NCBI RefSeq assembly: GCF_006349365.1
Contig: NZ_CP040899.1
Location: forward strand, 496,001 to 560,000
DNA: 64,000 nucleotides
Source: Georgenia wutianyii
Lineage (GTDB): Bacteria; Actinomycetota; Actinomycetes; Actinomycetales; Actinomycetaceae
Direction of reading: 5' to 3'
Part shown: positions 6,309 to 53,519 of the stretch, piece after piece
Numbering within the stretch: the stretch's first letter is position 1
Layout of the letters: each line of letters opens with the position of its first letter
Program-made: the position numbers and the translations under genes
Notes under the pieces: model-generated
Database searches by the model: none
Seen by the model: the letters and a program-made list of their open reading frames with translations, nothing else
What the model was told of the DNA's origin: nothing

Positions 6309-6361
6309 CCGTCGCTGAGCCAGCCCGGTTCTGACCCGGCTGCCGGGTCATTGACCGATTG

Positions 6362-39664: not shown

Positions 39665-40750
39665 GTGGCCCTCACCATCGGAATCGCGGGACTGCCCAAC
39701 GTCGGCAAGTCGACCCTGTTCAACGCGCTCACCCGCGCGACCGTGCTCGCCGCGAACTACCCGTTCGCGACGATCGAGCCGAACATCGGCGTCGTGCCGC
39801 TGCCGGACCCGCGGCTGGAGAAGCTCGCCGAGATCTTCGGCTCGCAGAAGATCCTCCCCGCGACGGTCTCGTTCGTCGACATCGCCGGCATCGTCCGCGG
39901 TGCCTCGGAGGGGGAGGGGCTGGGCAACCAGTTCCTCGCCAACATCCGCGAGGCGGACGCGATCTGCCTGGTGACCCGCGCGTTCAGCGACCCCGACGTG
40001 GTCCACGTCGAGGGCCGGGTCGCCCCGGCCGAGGACATCGAGACGATCATCACCGAGCTGGTCCTCGCCGACCTGCAGACGATGGAGAAGGCGATCCCGC
40101 GGCTGGAGAAGGAGGTGCGCGGCAAGAAGACCGACGCCGCCGTCCTCGACACCGCCCGCGGCGCCCTCGCGCTGCTGGAGGAGGGCACGGCGATCTCCGC
40201 CGGTGCCGCGAAGGCCGGGCTGGACCCCGAGCACCTCGCCACCTTCCAGCTGCTGTCCGCCAAGCCGTTCATCTACGTCTTCAACACCGACGACGAGGGC
40301 CTGGCCGACACCGCGATGCAGGCCGAGCTCCGTGAGCTCGTCGCCCCGGCGGACGCGATCTTCCTCGACGCGAAGTTCGAGTCCGAGCTCGTCGAGCTGG
40401 AGCCGGAGGAGGCCGCCGAGATGCTCGCCGACGCCGGCCAGGAGGAGGCGGGCCTCGACCAGCTCGCCCGGGTCGGCTTCGACACCCTGGGCCTGCAGAC
40501 CTACCTCACCGCCGGGCCGAAGGAGGCCCGCGCGTGGACGATCCACAAGGGCGCCACGGCCCCCGAGGCGGCGGGCGTCATCCACACCGACTTCCAGCGC
40601 GGCTTCATCAAGGCCGAGATCGTCTCCTTCGACGACCTCGTCGCCGCCGGCTCCATGGCCGAGGCCAAGGCCCGCGGCCAGGTGCGCATGGAGGGCAAGG
40701 ACTACGTCATGCAGGACGGCGACGTCGTGGAGTTCCGCTTCAACGTGTGA
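39665..40750 (+). CDS. ychF: Redox-regulated ATPase/GTPase YchF
   Basis: 361 residues of the Obg-related YchF family. The G1 loop is GLPNVGKSTLFNAL and G3 lies in DIAGIVRGASEGEGLGNQFL; the C-terminal TGS-like domain ends VMQDGDVVEFRFNV. YchF hydrolyses ATP more readily than GTP and binds ribosomes. The GTG start gives VALTIGIAGLPN. The last 45 bases are duplicated 8 kb downstream, so the 3' end of the gene appears to be an integration site whose coding sense is preserved. Confidence 0.95.
   Translation: MALTIGIAGLPNVGKSTLFNALTRATVLAANYPFATIEPNIGVVPLPDPRLEKLAEIFGSQKILPATVSFVDIAGIVRGASEGEGLGNQFLANIREADAICLVTRAFSDPDVVHVEGRVAPAEDIETIITELVLADLQTMEKAIPRLEKEVRGKKTDAAVLDTARGALALLEEGTAISAGAAKAGLDPEHLATFQLLSAKPFIYVFNTDDEGLADTAMQAELRELVAPADAIFLDAKFESELVELEPEEAAEMLADAGQEEAGLDQLARVGFDTLGLQTYLTAGPKEARAWTIHKGATAPEAAGVIHTDFQRGFIKAEIVSFDDLVAAGSMAEAKARGQVRMEGKDYVMQDGDVVEFRFNV
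40706..40750 (+). other. Left attachment-like sequence (ychF 3' end)
   Basis: The final 45 bases of ychF match 48643-48687 at 41 positions, and the last 19 match 47814-47832 with one mismatch. The direct orientation and the stop codon at the junction are what site-specific integration at a gene 3' end leaves behind. Confidence 0.6.
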
Positions 40751-40824
40751 AACCGGGCGTTTGTGCAGGTCAGAGCGGTATCGGGTGCTTCCAGTCCGCA
40801 CACGGTCCGCAAGAAGTTTCGCCT

Positions 40825-41148
40825 GATGGCTGGCTCGCCGAAGCGGAGGCCGTCGCCTCGGTCGGCAGCCGCGGGGACTCCTACGACAACGCGATGGCCG
40901 AGGCCATGAACTCCCTGTTCAGGGCCGAGTGCGTCCGCAACCCGGTCATGCGCCCGAAGGGCGGCTGGAAGAACGTGACCGACGTCGAGATCGCCGTCGC
41001 CGAGTACGTCGACTGGTTCAACCACCGACGCCTGCACGGCGAGATCGGCCTCGTTCCGCCCGCGGAGTTCGAGGCCAACCACTGGGCCAGCGTCACCCCC
41101 GAGCGCTACCCTGAAACACCCGTCCGCACCGGGGCTAATTCCAAGTAA
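40825..41148 (+). pseudogene. C-terminal fragment of an IS3-family transposase (OrfB)
   Basis: 108 codons read ASVGSRGDSYDNAMAEAMNS and VAEYVDWFNHRRLHGEIGLVPPAEFE, the end of an IS3-type DDE integrase core including its catalytic Glu region. The N-terminal two thirds and the first reading frame are absent, with nothing like them before ychF. It is a dead remnant marking recombination at the island's left end. Confidence 0.85.
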
Positions 41149-41150
41149 CC

Positions 41151-41178
41151 GAGCCTCCACGAAACCCGGGGCGATTCA
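41151..41178. repeat. Right terminal inverted repeat of the IS3 remnant
   Basis: GAGCCTCCACGAAACCCGGG and the following GCGATTCA, directly after the transposase stop codon, resemble the terminal repeats I know from actinobacterial IS3 elements. The matching left end is missing. The rest of the gap to ltrA (to 41287) holds no gene I can support. Confidence 0.55.
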
Positions 41179-41287
41179 CTCGCCACGGAGCGTCGATAGA
41201 CCGCCACACAACGGCGAAAGCCACATGCTCGGCTCCCGGCTGGGTTCCGGCGCGGGTGGCAGCCATGCTTACTGGGTGGGAGCTGGC

Positions 41288-42469
41288 TCAGTCGTCGGCG
41301 GGTAGTTGGCCGCGTCGTTGCTCGCGCAGTCCGGCCAGGATGGTGATGATCAGGGCGATGCCGATGGCGCTGACTGAGACCGCGGGCAGGAGTTGGTCGA
41401 GGTAGCCGACGGCCAGGATGGCCGGGATCGCGGCGAGGGGCCACGGCCAGGTCGCGCGCCACCCGTTGTTGCCGGAGATGATGACTGCGGTGCCGGTGAG
41501 GAACAATGCCGCGCCCGCGCACAGGGCCCACCGACCTCCGGTGGTGAGCTCACCGACCGGGTGGACGATGTATTGCTCGATACCGACCCCGACAGCCGCG
41601 AGGCCGAGGGTCAGCGGCAGGTGGCCGTAGACGTACCGGTCGGGCTTGGCGGTGTGTTGAGGCCGCTGCTCGGAGGTGAGCTGTTCCTTGCCCGCGACCG
41701 CACCGAGATCGAAGTAGTTCCACCACAGGGCGGAGGCGATGAGGAACCCGACTGCTGCGACGAGTACTGATGTGGGGTTCCAGTCGGTGTCGTGCATGCC
41801 GGTCACGACCGAGGCAACGGATTCACCGAGGACAAGGATGACGAACAGGGCGAAGCGTTCGGGCAGGTGCTCGATGTGCAGCGGGGCGTTGTCGCCCTTA
41901 CGGGTGGCGATCAGGGGTGCCGTGGCTTCCAGCGCGACGGCGAGGGCCCACAGCGCGTACGTGGCGGGCGCGGGCACAATCAGGGATACGGCCCACAGCA
42001 TCGCCCCGGCGGTGGTTCCGATCAGGTAGATCTCGATAGTGGTGCGTGCCTCGCGCACGTGGCGCCAGGCGCGGATGTACAGCGCCAGCAGCAGGAGCCG
42101 GGTGATGAGACATCCGACGGTGAACGCGGTGCTCTGGGCACCGGTTGGGTCGCTGGCTGCGGCGGCCATGACCGCCACACCGAATGCTCCGGCGAGTTTC
42201 GCCAGCCTGTACAGGACGTCATCGGTGTCGAACCGGTTGGCGTACAAGGTGATGGTCACCCACGACCACCATGTGACAGCGAACATCGACGTGAAGACCG
42301 CGGCCCCGTGCCAGGTCAGGTCCGCCGCGAAGGCTTTGGCGAGCTCGGCGACCACCAGCACGTAGGCGAGGTCCAGGAAGAGCTCGAGGCGGGAGGCGGA
42401 ACGGTCCTCGCCGGTGCGCAGCTCAGGCGGGCGTATCAGCCGCTGCGTCGGCTCCCTGTCAGTCGACAT
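41288..42469 (-). CDS. Low-temperature-requirement A (LtrA) family membrane protein
   Basis: 393 residues with about twelve helices. The N-terminal signature SASRLELFLDLAYVLVVAELAKAF and the central HIEHLPERFALFVILVLGESV are the LtrA hallmarks. The family was named for cold-sensitive Listeria mutants; its biochemical role is not known. It is island cargo and its codon use is visibly less GC-rich than that of ychF. The ATG start directly precedes STDREPTQ. Confidence 0.9.
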   Translation of the reverse strand: MSTDREPTQRLIRPPELRTGEDRSASRLELFLDLAYVLVVAELAKAFAADLTWHGAAVFTSMFAVTWWSWVTITLYANRFDTDDVLYRLAKLAGAFGVAVMAAAASDPTGAQSTAFTVGCLITRLLLLALYIRAWRHVREARTTIEIYLIGTTAGAMLWAVSLIVPAPATYALWALAVALEATAPLIATRKGDNAPLHIEHLPERFALFVILVLGESVASVVTGMHDTDWNPTSVLVAAVGFLIASALWWNYFDLGAVAGKEQLTSEQRPQHTAKPDRYVYGHLPLTLGLAAVGVGIEQYIVHPVGELTTGGRWALCAGAALFLTGTAVIISGNNGWRATWPWPLAAIPAILAVGYLDQLLPAVSVSAIGIALIITILAGLREQRRGQLPADD

Positions 42470-42595
42470 CGGATGGCTCCTGAGAATCGCGGGTGTCGGT
42501 CATGACGGGGCCAATGCCGTCAGGACGGGGCCACCGGTGGCCGGCTACCTGGTGTGGGGATGTTGACGGCGTAGCCGCGGGGCTGGCACGGAGCC

Positions 42596-42635
42596 CAGAT
42601 GGGCAGAGTGGATCGAATCCCACTCTGCCCATCTG
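42596..42635. terminator. Perfect 16-bp hairpin with an 8-base loop
   Basis: CAGATGGGCAGAGTGG, loop ATCGAATC, then the exact complement. It lies 30 bases beyond the stop of the leftward membrane-protein gene, so it probably ends that transcript. The inner part resembles a tRNA acceptor stem stacked on a T-arm, but there is no D or anticodon arm. Confidence 0.65.
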
Positions 42636-42665
42636 TGTGCGTCGGCCGCCGCGCCCTCCTTGTGG

Positions 42666-43310
42666 TCAGCGGCCGAGGCCGGCCTCGTCGACCTTGCGGT
42701 GATAATGCATGCCGGCGCGCCCACCGAGGATCGCACCAAGCAGGCTCACCAGGGCCGCGGCGACCACCGTGATGACTGCGGTGGTGGTGAGGTCGTCCGT
42801 GTCGATCGGGATGGGAATATTCGCCAGCTGACCCTGCCCGATCACGTTCTGACCGGCGATGACGCCCAGGACCGCGAGGACGATCACGATCACCACCGCC
42901 CAGACCCACACCGCCACGCCCTGCTTGACGCCGTCGAACCGGGCCATCCGTCCGGCGACGTAACCGCCGCAGAAGTAGGCGATGAAGAGGATCACCGCCG
43001 CGACGATCGCGCCCACGATCCCGATTGTCTGCGCGTTGTCGTCGGCAGCATCGGCTGCCTGGGTTAGGCCCAGGTCGCTGGCGAGACCGATCGCAGTGGC
43101 GATTCCGGTGATGAGAGCGGTCAGCAGGGCTGCGGCGCCGGTGGCGGTGAGCCACCCGAAGAACGCGGAGCCGATCTTGACACCGCCGTACTCCTCCTTC
43201 TCCCTCTTCACGACGCTCTGCCGGTCACGGCCTGGGCTCTCGGACGAGCGCGCGTCCGAACCGGCCCGGGGTTCCTTCTCTTGCGGTGTCGATCCGTAGC
43301 TGGTGCTCAT
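42666..43310 (-). CDS. Multi-pass membrane protein of unknown function
   Basis: 214 residues. A charged N-terminus (about 45 residues, ending KREKEEYGGVKIGSAFFGW) precedes four to five helices (about 52-75, 95-120, 127-150, 175-200). The glycine-rich end LLGAILGGRAGMHYHRKVDEAGLG resembles stress-type membrane proteins found with LtrA, AmaP and PRC-barrel genes. I do not recognise a precise family. The ATG follows AAAGGA on its strand. Confidence 0.7.
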   Translation of the reverse strand: MSTSYGSTPQEKEPRAGSDARSSESPGRDRQSVVKREKEEYGGVKIGSAFFGWLTATGAAALLTALITGIATAIGLASDLGLTQAADAADDNAQTIGIVGAIVAAVILFIAYFCGGYVAGRMARFDGVKQGVAVWVWAVVIVIVLAVLGVIAGQNVIGQGQLANIPIPIDTDDLTTTAVITVVAAALVSLLGAILGGRAGMHYHRKVDEAGLGR

Positions 43311-43407
43311 GGGTGTGTCCTTTCCGGGTGACGAGTCGAGATGCTTCCAGGCGGTCTCCGGTGGTGGCGGACGGCAGTCGACGCCGCCGGCCACCACGCG
43401 GTATCCG

Positions 43408-43670
43408 CTAGCTGTGTCCGACCGGGGTGCCGAACATCAGGGTGCGTCGGCGGACGTCGACGGTCCCAGCGCCGACGAGCAGGTCCTGGAGGTTGTCGGC
43501 GTCGTCGGGATCGAGGGTCAGCACCTCTTCCAGGCGCCCTGGTCCAACACCAGCTGCAGGGTGTAAGTCCCTGGTGCCCGGGCGTCACCGGCGACCCAGC
43601 TGAACTGGTCGTGGCCGACCTGACGGACGGCGATGCTGTCATCGGTGACGGGCTGGGTGACGTCGCTCGT
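43408..43670 (-). pseudogene. Decayed small stress-type gene (start codon lost, one frameshift)
   Basis: A good ribosome-binding site (GGAGGAG) is followed after six bases by ACG rather than ATG, then the frame TSDVTQPVTDDSIAVRQVGH and on to YTLQLVLDQGA. It stops shortly after, but the neighbouring frame carries on as LEEVLTLDPDDADNLQDLLV and RRRTLMFGTPVGHS. Together they make a plausible protein of about 85 residues. One base lost or gained near 43525, plus the ACG start, marks it as broken, unless ACG is used and the shift is a sequencing error. Confidence 0.5.
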
Positions 43671-43803
43671 GGGGTTCTCCTCCGGGTGCAGATGTGGTCG
43701 TGGATCTTGCCAAGGGCGGTGGCACCGCCTGGGGTGCCAGGAGACCTCTTCTGGGCTGGGAACCGAGGTCCGGTCCTGTTCCCTCGGTTCCCGGGGCCGG
43801 TTG

Positions 43804-43980
43804 CTAGCGGCCGAGCCCGCCCAGCCCACCGGGGAGCTTGCCGAGCAGGTCTTGGGGGTCGATCCCGAGCTTGCTGAGCAGACCGGAGTCCTTGTCGGTG
43901 TCGACCTTGTGGGGCAGCTCGGACTCGGCCTGGGTGGCCTTGTCCGTCTCGCCGCCGGCCGTGAGCTTGTCGATGTGCAC
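43804..43980 (-). CDS. 58-residue hypothetical protein
   Basis: GTG start with CGGAG eight bases upstream; the frame runs VHIDKLTAGGETDKATQAES, then a charged middle with HKVDTDKDSGLLSKLGIDPQ, and ends in a glycine-rich DLLGKLPGGLGGLGR. It has no membrane helix. It lies in line with the leftward stress genes of the island. I do not know its family; the good ribosome-binding site and codon pattern make it likely real. Confidence 0.55.
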   Translation of the reverse strand: MHIDKLTAGGETDKATQAESELPHKVDTDKDSGLLSKLGIDPQDLLGKLPGGLGGLGR

Positions 43981-44099
43981 GGTGGTTCTCCGTTCGTTGT
44001 TCTCGGTCGCTTCCCCACTAGGGACGCGCGGTCGGGGGCCTTGGGGGCCGTGGCCCGGCGATCCCCGGGCGGGGCCGGGCCACGGACCGGTGGCCCGGG

Positions 44100-44921
44100 T
44101 TAGTGCTTCGTGCCGCGCTCGGGGGCCTCGCCGGTGTCGGTCTCGATCTGCTCCTTGCGGACCTCCTCGGTGACCTCCCGGTCCTCGGTGACGGTCTCGG
44201 TGTCCAGGCGCACCCGCTCGACCGGGACGGTCTCCTTGGTGACCACGGGCTCCTCGGCGTGCAGGATGACCTCGTGCTCCTCGGAGGTGAGGTCCCCACC
44301 GGCCATGGCCGCGTCGCGGTTGGCCTCGGTGATCGGCTCACGCTCGATGCGGACCTCTTCGTGGGAGACCGGGACGGTCGTGGTGACGTTCTCGGTGACG
44401 ATGTACTTGCGCAGCCGGGCCTTGCCGGCCTGGACCTCCTCGGTGCCGACGTGCAGCTGCTCCTCCGAGCGGGTCATCGCGTTGTCGGTGGTCCTGCCGG
44501 AGGTGTCGCGTCCCACCACGCCCGGCTCACCGGTACGGTCGTCCCGGGGTGCGGGGGCGCCGACCCCGGGCAGGCCGGAGTCGGAGGCGGCCTCGGAATA
44601 GTCCAGGCCGTAGTAGCGGTACAGCTCGGCCTCCTGGCCCTGGGACAGGTGACCATCGCCGGACTCCTCCACCCGGGGGGCGTCCTTGACCTGGTCCTTG
44701 CCGTAGGGCACCTGGATCTCGCTGCCGGACACGGTGCCCTGGGCCAGCGGGACGAAGGACTCGGCGCTGCCGAACATGCCGGTCCTGACGGTGACCCACT
44801 CGGGGTCACCGGTCTGGTCGTCGAGGTAGACCTGGCCGACGTTGCCGATCTTCTCGCCGGCCTCGGTGACGACGGTGCCGCCGGTGGAAAGCAGGTTCTG
44901 GATCTGGTCCGTGCTGATCAT
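44100..44921 (-). CDS. PRC-barrel and DUF2382 (YsnF/AvaK-like) stress protein
   Basis: 273 residues. The PRC-barrel (about 5-90) has TVVTEAGEKIGNVGQVYLDDQTGDPEWVTVRTG. A linker rich in Gly and Asp follows, then a DUF2382 domain (about 150-260) with VGTEEVQAGKARLRKYIVTENV and VRIEREPITEANRD. Such proteins are linked to general or osmotic stress in actinomycetes and bacilli, without a known reaction. It fits the stress character of the island cargo. Confidence 0.87.
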   Translation of the reverse strand: MISTDQIQNLLSTGGTVVTEAGEKIGNVGQVYLDDQTGDPEWVTVRTGMFGSAESFVPLAQGTVSGSEIQVPYGKDQVKDAPRVEESGDGHLSQGQEAELYRYYGLDYSEAASDSGLPGVGAPAPRDDRTGEPGVVGRDTSGRTTDNAMTRSEEQLHVGTEEVQAGKARLRKYIVTENVTTTVPVSHEEVRIEREPITEANRDAAMAGGDLTSEEHEVILHAEEPVVTKETVPVERVRLDTETVTEDREVTEEVRKEQIETDTGEAPERGTKH

Positions 44922-45006
44922 GACTGACTCCTTCTGGTGGGTGCTGCGGGATTGTGGGTGATGACTCCGGCGGCCAGTCGGGCGGGCCGCGGGGTCGGCG
45001 GTGCCC

Positions 45007-45585
45007 TCAAGTGAGGTCCCGCCTGGTGCTGCGGCCCTTGCCGGGGCGCAGCACGATGTCGACGGCGAGGTCGGGGGCGTCGGCTGCCTGGCGCAGGTGG
45101 GGTATGACCAGCTCTTCGAGCTGGGCACGGATCTCGGCGACGTCGGCGCGGTCGGAGAGGTCCACGGTCAGGTCCAGGCGGGGGTGGTCCTCCCCGCGCA
45201 GGTGCGCCGATGCCCCGGTGACGCCGCGCAGCGCGCCGGCCTCGTCCTCGACGGCGTCGATGAGCGCACCGGCGTGCAGGGTGGTGAGCCCGTCGCGGGG
45301 GTCTTGGGTCAGGTCCAGGCGGGTGACCCGGTCGGTGCGCAGCTGCGCCAGGAGCCAGCGCAGCCCCAGCAGGGCGATCACCAGGCAGGCGGCGGCCACC
45401 ACGGGCCAGAACCACGAGGTGTCCGCGGCGAGGCGGCTGAGCTGGTCGGGCAGGACGGGTGAGGCTGCGAGGTCCGTTCCGAAGCCGCCGAGGCTGAGCA
45501 CGAGGCCCAGCACGCCGGCCGCGAGGAGGGCCAGGCCGAGGAGGGTGAGCACGGCGCGGTTGGCGCCGTCGACGCGGGTGCTCAC
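45007..45585 (-). CDS. amaP: Alkaline shock response membrane anchor protein AmaP
   Basis: 192 residues: two membrane helices (about 10-32 and 58-80) followed by a soluble Asp23-like domain (VTRLDLTQDPRDGLTTLHAGALIDAVEDEAGAL). In Firmicutes AmaP tethers Asp23 to the membrane. Its GTG start overlaps the stop of the DUF6286 gene by four bases, so they are coupled. The Asp23 gene it would anchor is decayed just upstream. Confidence 0.75.
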   Translation of the reverse strand: MSTRVDGANRAVLTLLGLALLAAGVLGLVLSLGGFGTDLAASPVLPDQLSRLAADTSWFWPVVAAACLVIALLGLRWLLAQLRTDRVTRLDLTQDPRDGLTTLHAGALIDAVEDEAGALRGVTGASAHLRGEDHPRLDLTVDLSDRADVAEIRAQLEELVIPHLRQAADAPDLAVDIVLRPGKGRSTRRDLT

Positions 45586-46133
45586 CGGGCCGCCTTGGTG
45601 GAGATGGTCACCCGTGGGCGCAGCACCTCGGCGAGCCCGAGGTCGGTGAGTGTCTCGGTGACGGCGCTGCTCACCTCTGCGTGGAGGGTGCCCGGGGAGC
45701 GGGTGGCGGTGCGGGCCCGGACGGTCGCGCGGCGCCGGCTCACCTGCGCGCGGGCCGCGCTGACGCCGCTGGTGCGCCGCGCGGCCGTGGCCAGGGATGT
45801 CTCGATGCCTCGGCGGGAGGCGCTCACGCTCACCCCGGCCGGGGTGCCTTGGGATCGGGGGGGCAGGCTCAGGGCGGAGGGTTTGCCTCGCCGGAGCGCG
45901 GGCCACAGCAGCAGCAGCCCGAGGAGCGCCAGCGCGACCAGCCCTGCGCGGACCGGGTCGGTGTCCCAGGTCTGTTCCCCGAGCCAGGTGCTCCACTGCT
46001 CGTGCGGGAGGACCCAGGAGGGCCGGCCGAGGAGGGCCAGGACGATCTCCACGGCGGCGAGCAGCCCACCAAGCAGCAGCGCCAGGGCCAGCAGCACGGA
46101 CAGGATCCGGTTCAGCAAAGCCATCGCGGTCAC
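45582..46133 (-). CDS. DUF6286-type membrane protein
   Basis: 183 residues with two helices (about 10-32 and 62-80) separated by the loop with PSWVLPHEQWSTWLGEQTW, then an Arg/Ser-rich soluble domain ending LAEVLRPRVTISTKAAR. This gene type regularly stands between Asp23 and AmaP in actinomycetes. I use the GTG at 46133 because it overlaps the stop of the Asp23 remnant (GTGA); an ATG three codons on is the alternative. Confidence 0.7.
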   Translation of the reverse strand: MTAMALLNRILSVLLALALLLGGLLAAVEIVLALLGRPSWVLPHEQWSTWLGEQTWDTDPVRAGLVALALLGLLLLWPALRRGKPSALSLPPRSQGTPAGVSVSASRRGIETSLATAARRTSGVSAARAQVSRRRATVRARTATRSPGTLHAEVSSAVTETLTDLGLAEVLRPRVTISTKAAR

Positions 46134-46368
46134 TTCACTCTCTTCCGGCTCGCGGTGGGCACCTTGAGGCTGACGACGTCTATGTCGACGTGGTCGACCC
46201 GCACGTCGGTGATCCGGCGATCTTCTGCACGACGCCGTCGGCGATGGTGGTGTTGCCCTGCGGGCTCTGCAGGGCGCTTGGCGCTGCCTTGGCGAGCTGA
46301 CTGCTGCTCGCACCCGGCGTCGCGGCAGGGCTGCTGGACAGGGCCGATGCGGTGGTGGGGTCGCTCAC
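46130..46368 (-). pseudogene. Asp23/Gls24 gene with an internal deletion
   Basis: The GTG start gives a low-complexity leader and then GNTTIADGVVQKIAG, the beginning of an Asp23 domain. The frame then ends at TAG after a short foreign tail. In another frame the same DNA continues as ITDVRVDHVDIDVVSLKVP and ends at a TGA overlapping the next gene, as the end of an Asp23 protein would. About 70 residues of the domain are missing between them. I read it as an internal deletion that also shifted the frame. Confidence 0.6.
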
Positions 46369-46383
46369 GGTCTCTCGTCTCCC

Positions 46384-46479
46384 TCGCGGATCAGTTCTTG
46401 GTCCGGAGCACCACGCCAGGCGCCGGCGCGGCGCCGTGACTACGGTGACCCTCATCTCCTTAGACACCAAGATCCGCGA
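46384..46479. promoter_or_regulatory. Symmetric GATCCGCGA elements in the divergent stress/sigma promoter region
   Basis: TCGCGGATC (46384-46392) and GATCCGCGA (46471-46479) face away from each other, each followed on its own strand by a purine-rich stretch with GGG. One leads to the Asp23 remnant and the other to the sigma-factor gene. It may be a sigma or regulator site used in both directions. Confidence 0.45.
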
Positions 46480-46527
46480 AGGGTTACACCCCGATGCCAT
46501 GGACTGAGGAACCTCGGGTGACCCCCG

Positions 46528-47076
46528 ATGCCGGCCCCCCCCAGCGCCGACGGCTGGGAGGCGGCCCTGGTCGCCCAGGCCCGCGACGGGAACGAGAGCG
46601 CGTTCGAAACTCTCGTCCGTCGCCACCAGGACCGCGCGTACCTGGTCGCGCTGCGAATCACCGGCCACCCGCAGAACGCCCAGGACGCCGTCCAGGACGC
46701 CCTCCTGAACGCCTGGAAAGGTCTGCCACGTCATCGCAGCGAGTCGAGCTTCGGTACCTGGCTGATCCGCATCGTCATCAACCGCTGCCACAACCAGCGC
46801 CGGGCCGCCCGACCCATCACCGCTCTGCCCGACGATGAGCCGATGTCCGGACCCGGACCCGAGAGCGAGGTGGTGGCCGCCCACCGCCAAGATGCCACTA
46901 TGAGGGCGATGGCCGCTCTGCCCTTCGACCAGCGCACCGCCCTGGTACTGCACACCTTCAATGGTTGTACGCACGCCGAGGCAGGGCGGATCCTGGGTAT
47001 CAGCGAGAATGCTGCCAAGGTCCGCGTGCATCGAGCCCGGCGCACGCTGACCGCCCGCCTGCAGGGATGGAGGTGA
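46528..47076 (+). CDS. ECF-type RNA polymerase sigma factor
   Basis: 182 residues with region 2 (ESAFETLVRRHQDRAYLVALRITGHPQNAQDAVQDALLNAW, about 22-65) and region 4 (LPFDQRTALVLHTFNGCTHAEAGRILGISENAAKVRVHRARRTL, about 130-172). It should direct polymerase to a small set of stress promoters, probably in this island. The following gene begins five bases after its stop and carries an anti-sigma zinc motif, so the pair likely forms a sigma/anti-sigma switch. No ribosome-binding site is obvious. Confidence 0.9.
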   Translation: MPAPPSADGWEAALVAQARDGNESAFETLVRRHQDRAYLVALRITGHPQNAQDAVQDALLNAWKGLPRHRSESSFGTWLIRIVINRCHNQRRAARPITALPDDEPMSGPGPESEVVAAHRQDATMRAMAALPFDQRTALVLHTFNGCTHAEAGRILGISENAAKVRVHRARRTLTARLQGWR

Positions 47077-47081
47077 CCGAT

Positions 47082-47708
47082 ATGGCCGAGTCTCGCCTCG
47101 CGTGCGGCGCCTCCTACGACGCACTGCTGAACCAGGTCGCCGAACGCACCGAGCCCGTCGACCCCGACCACCAGCGGGCCTGCCCTCACTGCCGAGCCGC
47201 CCTCGCCGAGTTGAGCGCCTTGTGGGCCCCGGTCCATGAGCTCGTGGACACCGATGTCCGGGCACCCTCCGACCTGCTGACCGCGGTGATGGCTCAGGTC
47301 CGACAGCTCGCCCGGCACAGCTGGTATGCCGTCATCCCCACCGGGCGGGGCGAGACACGGATCGCGGCGCGGATCATCGCCGCCGTCGCCCGCCTGGCGG
47401 CGCAAGAGGTCCCCTCCGTGACCCTGGCCCTGGGGGGCGGGCGCACCACACTGGACGCCACCAGCAGCCGGGTCGCCAGCCCCGCCGGCGAGCCGGCGAC
47501 CGACGTCGGCGTCGCCGGGACCCACGTGATCATCGATATCCAGATCGCCGTCGAGATGGGCACCGACATCCCTACCGTCGTCGAGACGCTCCGTGCCCAC
47601 GTCGCGCGCACGATCACCAACCAGCTCGCCCTCACCGCCGCAGAAGTCAACGTCACTGTCGCCGACGTACAACCCGCCGAAGCTCGCCCCTCGCCACGGT
47701 CCTCCTGA
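47082..47708 (+). CDS. Putative zinc anti-sigma factor fused to an Asp23-like domain
   Basis: 208 residues. The N-terminal part has HQRACPHC (His30, Cys34, Cys37), matching the H-x3-C-x2-C zinc motif of ZAS anti-sigma factors, in a helical segment of about 65 residues. The rest (about 80-195) reads as an Asp23/Gls24 domain with AVARLAAQEVPSVTLAL and VIIDIQIAVEMGTDIPTVVETLRAHVARTI. No membrane helix is seen, so it should be cytoplasmic. It sits directly behind the ECF sigma gene. I infer that the Asp23 domain senses or docks to the AmaP envelope complex. Confidence 0.7.
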   Translation: MAESRLACGASYDALLNQVAERTEPVDPDHQRACPHCRAALAELSALWAPVHELVDTDVRAPSDLLTAVMAQVRQLARHSWYAVIPTGRGETRIAARIIAAVARLAAQEVPSVTLALGGGRTTLDATSSRVASPAGEPATDVGVAGTHVIIDIQIAVEMGTDIPTVVETLRAHVARTITNQLALTAAEVNVTVADVQPAEARPSPRSS

Positions 47709-47813
47709 CTCCGGCCCGCGACGGTACCGAGTGATCGACGCGTTCAGGCGGGTCAGAGCGGGTTTTAGACGTCTACCGGCGACGTCCGTCACCAGCCAGA
47801 ATGGGCCGATTTC

Positions 47814-47832
47814 GTTCCGCTTCAACATGTGA
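47814..47832 (+). other. Internal attachment-like copy of the ychF end
   Basis: GTTCCGCTTCAACATGTGA equals the last 19 bases of ychF except for one G-to-A change. It marks the right end of island unit 1. Nothing coding leads into it, so it is not part of a gene here. The 166-bp gap around it between the Asp23-fusion gene and the dehydrogenase has no other gene. Confidence 0.6.
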
Positions 47833-47874
47833 GTCCCGACGGCGGGCCTCGCGCCGGGAGCCGGAGACCGCGTC

Positions 47875-48549
47875 CTATTCGCGGCCCTCCTCCAGCGGGA
47901 TGAGCATGGTCCGGAACGGGCCCGCGGAGCTGTGCAGCTCCCAGATGCGCTCGGCCACGTCGTCGATCCCGTTCTCGAGGTTGAGCTTCGGGATGGCTCC
48001 CGGGATCACGAGCTGGACGACCCGGACGCCCTCGTCCTGCAGGGCCTCGTGGAGCATCTCGCCGTACGCGCTCTCGGCGGGGAACGCGACCGAGGTCCCG
48101 GCGAAGCCGCTGCGAGCCTTGACCGACGTTCCGCCGTTGACGAGGACGATGCTGCCCTCACCCGCCTCTCGCATCGCCGGCAGGACCGTGCGCACGGCGT
48201 GGATGAGGCCCAGGGCGGAGAACTGCAGGGCCTCCGTTGCCAGCTCGGGCGTCAGCTCGAGCACCGGCTGGAGGTAGGCCCGGGAGGGGAGCGGGCTGTA
48301 CTGCAGCACGCTGATCCGGCCGAGCTCGGTCGTGGCCCGTTCAAGGGCGGTCACGAGGGACTCGGGATCCAGCACGTCTGCCGGGTAACCGCGCGCGACC
48401 ACGCCGCCGGCCTGCAGCTCGGCTGCCAGGTCGTCCAGCGTCGCCTGGTTGCGGGCGATGAGGGCGACAGAGAAGCCCTCGGCGCCGAACTTCCGCGCGA
48501 CTGCGGCCCCGAGGCCTGGTCCGGCACCGATGATTGCGATGGTGGGCAT
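47875..48549 (-). CDS. Short-chain dehydrogenase/reductase (SDR family)
   Basis: 224 residues with the Rossmann start IAIIGAGPGLGAAVARKFGAEGF and NAG-like and active-site regions: GSIVLVNGGTSVKARSGFAG and a Tyr in ESAYGEMLHEALQDEG. In place of the classical YxxxK the sequence is YGEML, so the catalytic lysine is not in its usual place and activity may be altered. The substrate is unknown. It is the only gene of the second unit behind ychF and is more GC-rich than unit 1. Confidence 0.8.
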   Translation of the reverse strand: MPTIAIIGAGPGLGAAVARKFGAEGFSVALIARNQATLDDLAAELQAGGVVARGYPADVLDPESLVTALERATTELGRISVLQYSPLPSRAYLQPVLELTPELATEALQFSALGLIHAVRTVLPAMREAGEGSIVLVNGGTSVKARSGFAGTSVAFPAESAYGEMLHEALQDEGVRVVQLVIPGAIPKLNLENGIDDVAERIWELHSSAGPFRTMLIPLEEGRE

Positions 48550-48642
48550 GGCCCGTCCCTTCCCGGAGAGTGTGGGCCCGACCATAGCCGCGGGCCGCGT
48601 GACGGACCTGTCGTGGGCCGTGGCGAAGGCCGCAAGGAGGGC

Positions 48643-48687
48643 GTCATGCAGGACGGCGACGTCGGGGAGCTCCGCTTCGACGTCTGA
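48643..48687 (+). other. Distal copy of the ychF 3' end
   Basis: The 45 bases match the ychF end at 41 positions and would read VMQDGDVGELRFDV before a TGA. It has no gene in front of it. It may be the ychF end of the original host, displaced when island DNA supplied a new one. Confidence 0.65.
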
Positions 48688-48717: not shown

Positions 48718-49233
48718 TCAGCGGCCGGCGGCGTCGTCCGAGGTCGTCGGCGCGGTGAGGGCCGCGGCGTACGCGCGCATCGAGCGCTGGTAGCGGGGCA
48801 GGGCCTCGATCTGCGCCTCGACCGAGACCTGGAGCGCCTCGTCGGTGCGTCCGGCGCTGTGGAGCGCCAGGGCCAGCACGAGGCGTGGGGCGGACCCGGT
48901 GGACTCGTGCGTCGGGGCGGCTCGCAGGACGGCGATCGCCTCGTCGAGGCGGCCGAGGTTGCGCAGGGTCGAGCCGTACTGGACCGCGAGCTGCGCATGC
49001 CTGGCGGTGTCGAGGCCGAGGTCCAGAGCGCGCTCGTACTGCGCGGCGGCCTCGGCCTCGAACCCCTGGGAGTCGTACATCCCCGCGAGCTCGAACGCCG
49101 CCCTGCCGTCGGTGGCCGGGCACGTCGCCGCCAGGTCGCGCATCGCGGTCACGCCGTCCTCGGGTCCGAGGCAGTCGAGACGCTTCCACAGCTCGGCGAC
49201 CGAGGCTTCCCACTGCTCCAGCGGCGTCGTCAT
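48718..49233 (-). CDS. Tetratricopeptide-repeat protein
   Basis: 171 residues, all helical, with about three TPR units: ALAGMYDSQGFEAEAAAQYERAL-like units from about residue 45 (AGMYDSQGFEAEAAAQYERA), YGSTLRNLGRLDEAIAVLRA, and LALALHSAGRTDEALQVSVEA. Such proteins mediate protein contacts. Partner and role are not visible from the neighbours. Confidence 0.75.
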   Translation of the reverse strand: MTTPLEQWEASVAELWKRLDCLGPEDGVTAMRDLAATCPATDGRAAFELAGMYDSQGFEAEAAAQYERALDLGLDTARHAQLAVQYGSTLRNLGRLDEAIAVLRAAPTHESTGSAPRLVLALALHSAGRTDEALQVSVEAQIEALPRYQRSMRAYAAALTAPTTSDDAAGR

Positions 49234-51291: not shown

Positions 51292-51729
51292 ATGGCCACG
51301 AGACTGGACAACATCGGGATCGCGGTCCGCGACCTCGACGCCGCGGTCGCGTTCTTCACCGACCTCGGCCTCACCGTGCTGGGCCGGGACACGGTGAGCG
51401 GGCAGTGGGCGGACACGGCCGTGGGCCTCGACGGCAACCACGTGCGCATCGCCATGCTGCAGACGCCCGACGGTCACGGGCGCCTCGAGCTCTTCGAGTA
51501 CCTCCACCCCGAGGCCATCGAGACGGAGCCGACCCGCCCCAACGAGATCGGCATGCACCGGGTGGCCCTCGCCGTCGACGACCTCGACGCCGCCCTCGAG
51601 ATCGCGGCGCGGCACGGCTGCCACCCGCTGCGTGGCGTGGCGAGGTACGAGGACGCCTACCGGCTCACCTACCTGCGGGGCCCGAGCGGCATCATCGTCA
51701 TGCTCGCCGAGGAGCTCGGACGGCCCTGA
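51292..51729 (+). CDS. VOC-family (glyoxalase-like) protein
   Basis: 145 residues with the paired beta-alpha-beta-beta-beta fold of the vicinal oxygen chelate family: LDNIGIAVRDLDAAVAFFTDLGL in the first half and HRVALAVDDLDAALEIAARHG in the second. The metal ligands of glyoxalase I are only partly kept, so the reaction is open. It may be a dioxygenase-like or resistance-type protein. Confidence 0.85.
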   Translation: MATRLDNIGIAVRDLDAAVAFFTDLGLTVLGRDTVSGQWADTAVGLDGNHVRIAMLQTPDGHGRLELFEYLHPEAIETEPTRPNEIGMHRVALAVDDLDAALEIAARHGCHPLRGVARYEDAYRLTYLRGPSGIIVMLAEELGRP

Positions 51730-51851
51730 GGACCCGCCGGACGGCGCCGTCGTGAGCTGCCGGGCACCGCGAGGCCGAGGTCACGGTCCGGGCGGGCATC
51801 GCGGGGAGTCGTGCGGTCTGTCGAGCCCCTCCCCGGTGCGAGGATTGGCTG

Positions 51852-53519
51852 ATGACCGCGACCCTCGTGACCCACGGCCTGGCCGGCGGGTACGGCCATC
51901 GCACCCTGTTCGACTCACTCGACCTCACCATCGCCCCGGGAGACGTCCTCGGGGTGGTCGGCGCCAACGGCGCGGGGAAGTCCACGTTGCTCAGGCTGCT
52001 CGCAGGCAAGGACCAGCCGCAGGCGGGGGCCATCACGCTGTCGCCGCCGGACGCCTTCGTCGGCTGGCTGCCCCAGGAGCACGAGCGCGTCGTCGGGGAG
52101 ACCGTGGCCGAGTACATCGCCCGCCGCACGGGGTGCGCCGAGGCGACCAGGGACCTGGAGGCCGCGGCGGCGGCGCTCGGTGACCCGTCGCTCCTCGAGG
52201 GCAGTGGGGTCGACCCGGCCGATGCGTACTCCTCGGCGCTGGACCGCTGGCTGGCCTGCGGTGCCGCCGACCTCGACGAGCGCATCCCGGACGTGCTCGC
52301 CGACCTGGGCCTGGACCTCGGCGGGGCCCGGCCCGAGCAGGCACTGATGACCTCGCTGTCCGGCGGGCAGGCCGCCCGGGTCGGGCTGGCGGCGCTGCTC
52401 CTGTCCCGGTTCGACATCGTGCTGCTGGACGAGCCGACGAACGACCTCGACCTCGACGGTCTCGAACGGCTCGAGGCCGTCGTCCACGGGCTCCGCGGCG
52501 GGGTGGTGGTCATCAGTCACGACCGTGAGTTCCTCGCGCGCTGCGTGACGCGAGTGCTGGAGCTCGACCTGGCCCAGGGCACGAACCGCGTGTTCGGTGG
52601 CGGCTACGACGCGTACCTGGAGGAGCGGGAGACCGTCCGCCGCCACCAGCGGGAGAAGTACGACGAGTTCGCCGACAAGAAGGCCGACCTCGTCTCGCGG
52701 GCCAGGACCCAGCGGGAGTGGTCGAGCCAGGGCGTGCGCAACGCGATGAGGAAGGCGCCGGACAACGACAAGATCAGGCGCAAGGCCGCGAGCGAGTCGA
52801 GCGAGAAGCAGGCGCAGAAGGTCCGGCAGATGGAGAGCCGCATCGCTCGGCTCGAGGAGGTCGAGGAGCCTCGCAAGGAGTGGCAGCTCCAGTTCACCAT
52901 CGGGTCGGCGCCGCGCTCCGGGTCGGTCGTCTCGACGCTCAGCCAGGCGGTGTTCCGGCAGGGGTCCTTCACGCTCGGCCCGGTGTCGTTGCAGGTGAAC
53001 GCGGGGGAGCGGATCGGCATCACCGGACCGAACGGCGCCGGCAAGTCGACGCTGCTCCGCGGGCTGCTGGGCCACCAGCTGCCGGACGAGGGGACGGCGA
53101 GCCTGGGGGCCGGCGTTCACATCGGTGAGATCGACCAGGCGCGCGCGGTGCTCGCCGGGTCCCAGCTCCTCGCGCCGGCCTTCGAGGCGCTCGTCCCGGA
53201 CATGGCGTCCGGGGAGGTGCGCACGCTCCTGGCGAAGTTCGGGCTCAAGGCCGACCACGTCAACCGCCCCGTCGACGAGCTGTCCGCCGGGGAGCGCACG
53301 CGGGCCGGGCTGGCGCTGCTGCAGGCTCGTGGTGTCAACCTGCTCGTGCTCGACGAGCCGACGAACCACCTCGATCTCGCGGCCATCGAGCAGCTCGAGC
53401 AGGCGCTCGAGTCCTACGACGGAACGCTGCTGCTGGTGACCCACGACCGGCGGATGCTCGCCACCGTACGCACCGACCGGCGGTGGCACGTCGAGGCGGG
53501 CCAGGTCACCGAGCTGTAG
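51852..53519 (+). CDS. ABC-F family ATP-binding protein
   Basis: 555 residues with two ABC ATPase domains and no membrane part. Walker A is GANGAGKST (about 37-45) and GPNGAGKST (about 393-401); signatures are LSGGQAARVGLA and LSAGERTRAGLA; Walker B ends LLDEPTNDLD and VLDEPTNHLD. The linker (about 245-340) is the charged ABC-F hinge. ABC-F proteins act on ribosomes, in translation or antibiotic protection. The subtype cannot be set, and the second signature has A for the usual G. Confidence 0.93.
   Translation: MTATLVTHGLAGGYGHRTLFDSLDLTIAPGDVLGVVGANGAGKSTLLRLLAGKDQPQAGAITLSPPDAFVGWLPQEHERVVGETVAEYIARRTGCAEATRDLEAAAAALGDPSLLEGSGVDPADAYSSALDRWLACGAADLDERIPDVLADLGLDLGGARPEQALMTSLSGGQAARVGLAALLLSRFDIVLLDEPTNDLDLDGLERLEAVVHGLRGGVVVISHDREFLARCVTRVLELDLAQGTNRVFGGGYDAYLEERETVRRHQREKYDEFADKKADLVSRARTQREWSSQGVRNAMRKAPDNDKIRRKAASESSEKQAQKVRQMESRIARLEEVEEPRKEWQLQFTIGSAPRSGSVVSTLSQAVFRQGSFTLGPVSLQVNAGERIGITGPNGAGKSTLLRGLLGHQLPDEGTASLGAGVHIGEIDQARAVLAGSQLLAPAFEALVPDMASGEVRTLLAKFGLKADHVNRPVDELSAGERTRAGLALLQARGVNLLVLDEPTNHLDLAAIEQLEQALESYDGTLLLVTHDRRMLATVRTDRRWHVEAGQVTEL

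Follow-up and report, generated by a model that had tools for sequence, protein, structure and literature searches.

The window analysed here is a 64,000-nucleotide (nt) stretch of the genome of Georgenia wutianyii (NZ_CP040899.1), in which the intact ychF gene (39668..40750, + strand; 360 amino acids, with 90-94% identity in five congeners) is followed by two further copies of its own 3' end. An initial annotation of this sequence had claimed that the ychF end is present three times in the same orientation, and this was borne out: the last 19 nt of the gene (40732-40750) recur at 47814..47832 (+ strand; copy 2) with 18 of 19 nt identical, and at 48643-48687 a third copy (copy 3) shares 41 nt with the final 45 of ychF, a likeness that extends to 49 of 56 nt over 48632..48687 (+ strand). 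The first two copies enclose an island of about 7 kb and the second and third a unit with a single gene, for a short-chain dehydrogenase/reductase (SDR); how these two units came to lie behind ychF is the subject of this report. The annotation had also stated that no gene reads into the copies, which stands with one qualification, as a mechanically called + strand open reading frame (ORF; 47932-48687) crosses copy 3, yet is antisense to the SDR gene.

Repeats and attachment sites at the end of ychF

When the whole 3.45-Mb genome was searched with the 19-nt ychF end at <=3 mismatches, four places were found: three are in the window within 8 kb of each other, and the fourth lies on the opposite strand in an unrelated region. 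Reversing the pattern as a control gave 0 matches. The common non-ychF motif that the annotation had named as an alternative source of the repeat is thereby rejected. In a blastn comparison with 71 nt around the ychF end, copy 3 was recovered with an E value of 1e-13, as opposed to 0.11 for copy 2, which is thus weak taken alone; it is secured by its flank, which matches the right end of an island in the congener G002. Here the 94 nt ending in copy 2 align at 75.5% over 98 columns (E 2e-12), with a score of 30 as opposed to a maximum of 16 in 1000 shuffles. Downstream copies of a gene's own last 22 nt were also seen in 19 of 100 ychF loci, a non-random sample since loci L031-L110 were picked by similarity to the window ychF. 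These loci hold 26 such copies at <=4 mismatches (15 at <=3), all in sense orientation, with 0 antisense copies downstream in 1.00 Mb and 0 copies on either strand upstream of ychF in 0.86 Mb.

The first two copies are accompanied by flanking arms, and together they define a left attachment site, attL (40732-40813), and a right attachment site, attR (47739-47832). In attL the core is the ychF end itself and the P' arm (40751..40813, + strand) carries AGTCCGCA-type direct repeats that are shared with congeners, whereas in attR the P arm (47739..47813, + strand) precedes the core at copy 2 and is the part that matches the G002 island. The P' arm is identical to the window at 54 of 63 nt in G002, 51 in G001, 51 in G004 and 47 in G005, and in the same four congeners only 19-28 of the next 63 nt are identical, which marks an abrupt divergence just beyond the arm; in the congener G003 and in G007 the identity over the arm itself is that expected by chance (13 and 16 of 63 nt). 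The island is thus flanked by direct repeats of which one completes ychF, and its arms contain repeated motifs of a putative integrase-binding type.

Contents of the two units

The contents given in the initial annotation were confirmed by a Pfam scan. Directly behind the P' arm lies the C-terminal 106 amino acids of an IS3-family transposase (40828..41148, + strand; rve_3, E 9e-10), a remnant that occupies the place taken by an integrase gene in related loci of Modestobacter (L083) and Myceligenerans (L046). The cargo on the - strand then comprises an LtrA-family membrane protein (41288..42469; LtrA, E 2e-84), a membrane-type protein with no Pfam family (42666..43310), a stress-type protein with PRC-barrel and DUF2382 domains (44100..44921) and two overlapping genes (45007..46124), of which 45582-46124 matches DUF6286 and 45007-45585 has no Pfam match. 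On the + strand are an extracytoplasmic function (ECF) sigma factor (46528..47076; Sigma70_r2 and Sigma70_r4_2) and an adjoining Asp23-domain protein (47082..47708; Asp23, E 4e-14). The cargo is less GC-rich, as had been noted, and the difference is slight (70.1% vs 72.8% for the window outside it; 86 windows of the same size outside the cargo have a mean of 72.4% and a minimum of 70.2%). No integrase was found in the window (tblastn, best E 3.1), in agreement with the annotation, and the hallmarks of actinomycete integrative and conjugative elements (AICEs), a Rep initiator and an FtsK-like TraB, were absent from the ten window proteins scanned.

The second unit (47833-48687, 855 bp) has the SDR gene (47875..48549, - strand; adh_short, E 2e-22) as its sole gene. 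The best match to its protein in each of the five congeners shows 29-31% identity, and since there is no close relative in any of them the gene looks acquired. Copy 3, at which this unit ends, is a longer piece of ychF without a recognised arm, so that the second unit would be either of another type or much older than the island. A comparable piece is found in G007, a genome of a neighbouring genus, where a 58-nt ychF tail starts within 2 nt of the ychF position at which copy 3 starts and likewise ends TGAGCGA.

Integrase-type elements at ychF in relatives

The place behind ychF is occupied by integrase genes in several relatives. In the Modestobacter and Myceligenerans loci, GTCCGCA-type repeats after ychF are followed by an intact frame for a tyrosine integrase, which is encoded on the other strand and starts 34 nt (L083, Pfam Phage_integrase) or 109 nt (L046) beyond the stop of ychF; in Blastococcus (L054) the same type of repeat stands beside a full-length integrase domain. 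A second core copy lies downstream in each, at 7.1 kb in Blastococcus, 10.7 kb in Modestobacter and 25.2 kb in Myceligenerans. Arm likeness outside the genus lies mainly in the repeats. Within the genus, the congener G002 (L112, L168) has a 24-kb ychF island between matching att sites, which encodes an intact relative of this integrase, an excisionase-like helix-turn-helix (HTH) protein, a TrwC relaxase and a HerA-like/SIR2-like pair. Neither Rep nor TraB was found among the selected ORFs scanned in the relatives' elements.

The far side of the locus was readable in three of the five congeners (G001, on two contigs, G002 and G003). In G003, ychF is followed by 1.4 kb and then an ABC-F gene, with no arm and a different downstream gene set, and this is the nearest thing to an unoccupied site. 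In G002, a 2.9-kb segment after attR shows 87% identity to a segment of G007 (L117, L174) that lies there between ychF and the first ychF-end copy; this segment is probably ancestral to both genera.

Across the class, the pattern of a ychF end plus arm was found in 18 of 394 genomes, that of the window counted, with 0 in the reversed control, and ychF itself lies upstream in 13 of these 18. Four loci (L181, L184, L185 and L187) have core and arm with no ychF match upstream and for this reason fit stacked elements, and in L188 (G322) only a short ychF tail (28 residues, E 4e-7) stands upstream of the arm. The integrase clade, taken at E<=1e-70, was found in 13 of the 394 genomes, five of which have ychF within 8 kb of the integrase: in G099, G090 and G358 about 55-60 nt separate the integrase from the ychF stop, and in G216 and G314 it lies 5-8 kb downstream of the gene. 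In G361, ychF is about 17 kb from the integrase with core and arm between them, and in G322 the ychF-tail copy with its arm lies about 7 kb from the integrase on a stretch without ychF itself. Integrase genomes and arm-pattern genomes overlap in 4 cases (hypergeometric p 0.0017). The search of actinomycete genomes that had been proposed thus recovered both duplicated ychF ends and adjoining integrases.

Other alterations of the ychF end were also seen. In Schaalia (L037), an ORF with a Recombinase domain (serine type) begins some 650 nt beyond a ychF end that has been altered, and another kind of recombinase may use this site too. The ychF ends of L037, L039 and L097 have been changed to similar new tails that end KK-stop, and behind the altered gene in L039 and L097 are ORFs that by eye are methyltransferase- or restriction-like.

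Cassette arrays in the family of Demequina

A different arrangement behind ychF is found in the family of Demequina, where rows of small units each end in a recurring site. The site pattern was found in 27 of 47 genomes of this family (reversed control, 0), and as four of these (G437, G443, G458 and G470) match only at the apparent ychF itself, 23 of 47 have extra copies. In 21 of the 23 (L047, L049 and L057 among them) the stretch with the copies also carries ychF; in G472 the copies begin at a contig end, and in G434 (L248) there is no ychF match on a 13-kb stretch, where a cassette-type site at 6318 is followed by a HigBA-like start; this unit may terminate a long array or be located elsewhere than behind ychF. 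Unit ends after ychF all point in one direction, with nine in G453, five in G471 and five in G448. The consensus unit end is ccagAgGTTgtTCGGCTaCGGAAcGcGGTcGAGTTCaGgTTcAAcGTgTAg, built from those array copies that reach a motif score >=12 (58 of 70; the 12 dropped are mostly of other families), and a conserved site of about 47 nt ends most units, some unit ends being weak (e.g. L246, L247).

These units have been exchanged precisely between positions and genomes. Among 68 units of 307-3767 nt cut from 28 loci, some of which belong to other families, 75 pairs drawn from separate loci can be aligned across >80% of the shorter member, in several cases end to end. For example, L047 633-2499 corresponds to L057 0-1866 (1866 nt at 96.5%), and the adjoining L047 2499-3308 corresponds to L049 1307-2116 (809 nt at 90.6%). 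Many array units are of toxin-antitoxin or single-enzyme type, and defence-type genes occur as well: the 130 unit proteins, predicted by a rough script and listed against Pfam for 25 of 90 families, include aldo/keto reductases, pairs of a nucleotidyltransferase and HepT, HigB, PIN and glyoxalase proteins, and two unit proteins match Pycsar cyclase models. In its strict form the cassette site was found in 3 of 394 genomes of the class (reversed control, 0), so that arrays of this strict form belong mainly to the Demequina family; less exact relatives of the site occur at single loci in other families. A HigBA-type start (CGTTATT-like) was also seen to abut the ychF stop in several genera (L045, L059, L080, L119, L122, L238, L239 and L245).

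The point of exchange was approached through 182 sites, of which 112 are ychF ends and 70 are array copies, with HigBA-type units called by a motif at the unit start. Sixteen sites precede such a start, and 15 of these 16 have a T ten bases before the unit, as opposed to 21% of the other 166 sites (p 8.6e-9, a statistic that ignores ancestry); the association is independent of the preceding arginine codon, and no column further upstream, up to 40 nt, has a p below 0.0037. This pattern fits a crossover in which strands are exchanged after the arginine codon and before that for phenylalanine, so that the unit would supply the last codons of ychF.

No PF00589 protein was found near the array in 11 array genomes, and none on the array's own contig within about 180 kb; that the units contain no tyrosine recombinase is concluded from these recombinase searches and not from the Pfam listing. 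Of six array genomes searched with PF00239, three gave no match and three gave one match each. A dedicated tyrosine or serine recombinase is thus not supported by the PF00589 (11 genomes) or PF00239 (six genomes) searches. An attC-like fold of the array site was likewise not supported, as the two site forms folded had z scores of -1.5 and +1.3 and the first of them, when reverse-complemented, one of -1.4. As compared with integrons, the arrays therefore have the precise exchange of units, and have neither an adjoining integrase (11 array genomes) nor, in the two forms and one reverse complement folded, sites that fold as single strands. In G428 there are only two PF00589 proteins in all, whose best scores are as XerC- and XerD-like proteins and fall below the NCBI equivalog cut-offs. 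The cassettes may be moved by Xer or by the transient integrase of another element.

Interpretation of the window

It is very probable, as judged from comparisons of sequence, that the 3' end of ychF serves as the bacterial attachment site (attB) of an actinobacterial clade of tyrosine integrases, that the 7-kb unit of the window is a decayed element which has lost its integrase, and that the SDR unit is an earlier insertion. The stretch 40751-47832 is read as such an element because its arms are shared with congeners and integrases lie at the same place in relatives; it is read as a remnant, as opposed to a working element, because the integrase is missing here and present in the related elements. 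In this scheme, an element with an integrase would have entered by recombination within the shared 19-nt end, which leaves ychF intact and produces attL (ychF end and P' arm) and attR (P arm and core copy). The integrase region would later have been lost, where the IS3 remnant now lies, with 7 kb of stress-type cargo remaining, and the SDR unit ending in copy 3 would have been inserted earlier at the same gene end and then pushed outward. The site-specific insertion behind an intact ychF that the annotation proposed is accordingly upheld for the 7-kb unit by the recurring arms and the related integrases; its further claim, that this happened twice, is likely for the second unit and less certain, as copy 3 is longer and has no arms. 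The SDR unit is probably the older insertion of the two. Copy 3 would be its mark, and the chances that it is also the displaced original end of ychF are about evenly balanced.

Several observations weigh against this interpretation. Beyond the genus, the ungapped identity of the P' arm is 36/63 in L083 and 34/63 in L054 (shuffle maxima 31 and 29) and 18/63, at chance level, in L046, where a gapped blastn alignment nonetheless spans the arm. The window's P arm shows no significant likeness to L046, L054 or L083, since 749, 78 and 47 of 1000 shuffled sequences, respectively, reach its score. The integrase frame of L054 has no stop of its own and reads on antisense through ychF, and six of the 13 integrase genomes have neither ychF nor core within about 10 kb on either side, so that this clade is not confined to ychF. 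The lack of arms at copy 3 counts here as well, no congener was found with the exact right flank of the window and no island, and mobility cannot be demonstrated at this locus because the integrase is absent.

The arrays described above suggest another origin, in which both units of the window would be integron-like cassettes of the Demequina-family type, captured at ychF by a recombinase encoded elsewhere. They share with the arrays the gene end, the orientation and, in the 855-bp unit, the one-gene format, and such arrays are real in the Demequina family and scattered in others; in G007, which belongs to the family of the window, the sequence upstream of the ychF-end copy resembles the site by eye, with a motif score of 10 that equals the shuffle maximum. 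The window copies themselves lack the cassette-site motif, scoring 7 and 9 of 18 as opposed to an array mean of 15.1 and 7.7 for shuffles, and copy 2 carries arms of the integrase type, which makes a cassette origin unlikely.

An explanation that concerns the second unit only, and is compatible with the decayed element, takes copy 3 for the original end of ychF: it would have been moved away either by an incoming element with a longer ychF tail of its own or by a circle with a ychF fragment that integrated through a single crossover. Copy 3 is indeed a 56-nt piece of real ychF sequence, and displaced ychF 3' parts of at least about 120 residues lie several kb downstream of the gene in L120 (G012) and in L074 (Naasia), each close to its own ychF; in L074 the gene now ends in the non-canonical EFRHS, and the displaced tail ends FRFNV. 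The 58-nt tail of G007 and the short tail with arm in G322, on its stretch without ychF, point the same way. Against this, 56 nt with 7 differences are too short to be placed by descent and the left partner of such an event was not identified, and displacement is given an even chance. That the copies arose by chance, or reflect a common coding motif, has a negligible probability: copy 2 alone is only 19 nt, at the E value given above, but the clustering of three of the four genomic matches within 8 kb and the conserved arms argue against chance, and a coding motif is ruled out by the rarity of the core in the genome and by downstream copies that are sense-only among the 100 ychF loci.

On a wider scale, actinobacteria could have an integron-like cassette system with the ychF end as its platform, the window belonging to the same hotspot with an integrase-type element and one SDR unit in place; this is put at somewhat less than an even chance. 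Units of 0.3-3.8 kb would recombine at a fixed point in the last codons of the gene (arginine codon / TTY-AAC-GTN-stop) without a dedicated integrase, by way of XerC/XerD or of the integrase of a passing element, and each incoming cassette would supply the last codons and stop of ychF since the exchange point lies inside those codons. The end of a universal and highly conserved gene is a landing site for several kinds of mobile DNA, and in actinobacteria it predicts where cargo, for instance toxin-antitoxin or defence genes, can be located. The arrays of the Demequina family would capture cassettes on a platform that has no integrase of its own, and what moves these cassettes can be tested directly in a genome with only XerC- and XerD-like tyrosine recombinases.

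Relation to known systems

Integrons, and the integrase-less clusters of attC sites lacking integron-integrases (CALINs), share several traits with the Demequina-family arrays: small units run in one direction, a conserved recombination site recurs and toxin-antitoxin units are abundant. The arrays differ in that the platform is the ychF end, no integrase adjoins and the tested sites do not fold like attC. Integrative mobile elements exploiting Xer (IMEXs) use the XerCD recombinases of the host. Use of Xer would explain movement of the cassettes without a recombinase of their own, and in G428, the one genome examined for this, the only tyrosine recombinases are XerC- and XerD-like; on inspection by eye, no dif-like site was recognised.

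Integrative elements of Streptomyces (AICEs and relatives) are described as accreting and decaying at hotspots, with insertions in tRNA genes (36), protein-coding genes (14) and one intergenic site (PMC9513070). These elements resemble the ychF hotspot in having an integrase, direct repeats at the target gene, several elements per site and decayed copies without integrase (PMC9513070). They differ in the target, as ychF has 0 occurrences in the main text of that paper, and in that neither Rep nor TraB was found here among the ORFs scanned; G002 has its TrwC relaxase and HerA-like/SIR2-like pair. Mobile elements also integrate beside ychF in Streptococcus pneumoniae, where prophage and satellite sites lie upstream of the gene, between a DUF951 gene and ychF (PMC8637289, PMC10383233), as opposed to the 3' end used here in another phylum. 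Three further papers treat ychF as a marker gene only (PMC4289293, PMC13046425, PMC1796617), two have no bearing on the subject (PMC2978726, PMC11932112), and one on Staphylococcus aureus lists YchF with RpsF and RpsR among the genes of prophage regions for which a pathogenicity-island integrase is also named, a listing that does not concern the ychF end (PMC8460829).

Integration at the ychF 3' end was unfamiliar to the initial annotation, and no description of it or of ychF cassette arrays was found in the literature searched, which included few subscription papers. The window feature, read as a decayed integrase element at a gene end, is of a known kind, with a target that is undescribed in the literature found; the larger interest is in the ychF-end hotspot, above all in the cassette arrays.

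Genes beyond the two units

The second unit is followed by a tetratricopeptide repeat (TPR) gene at 48718, and a strain in which ychF is followed directly by this gene, as the annotation had suggested looking for, was not found. Ten proteins, from the units and the TPR gene, had no match in checked frames (E<=1e-6) in the stretches of G001-G005, G007 and G039-G041. Further downstream in the window, at 51292-53519, are VOC and ABC-F genes, whose order is opposite to that in G001-G003.

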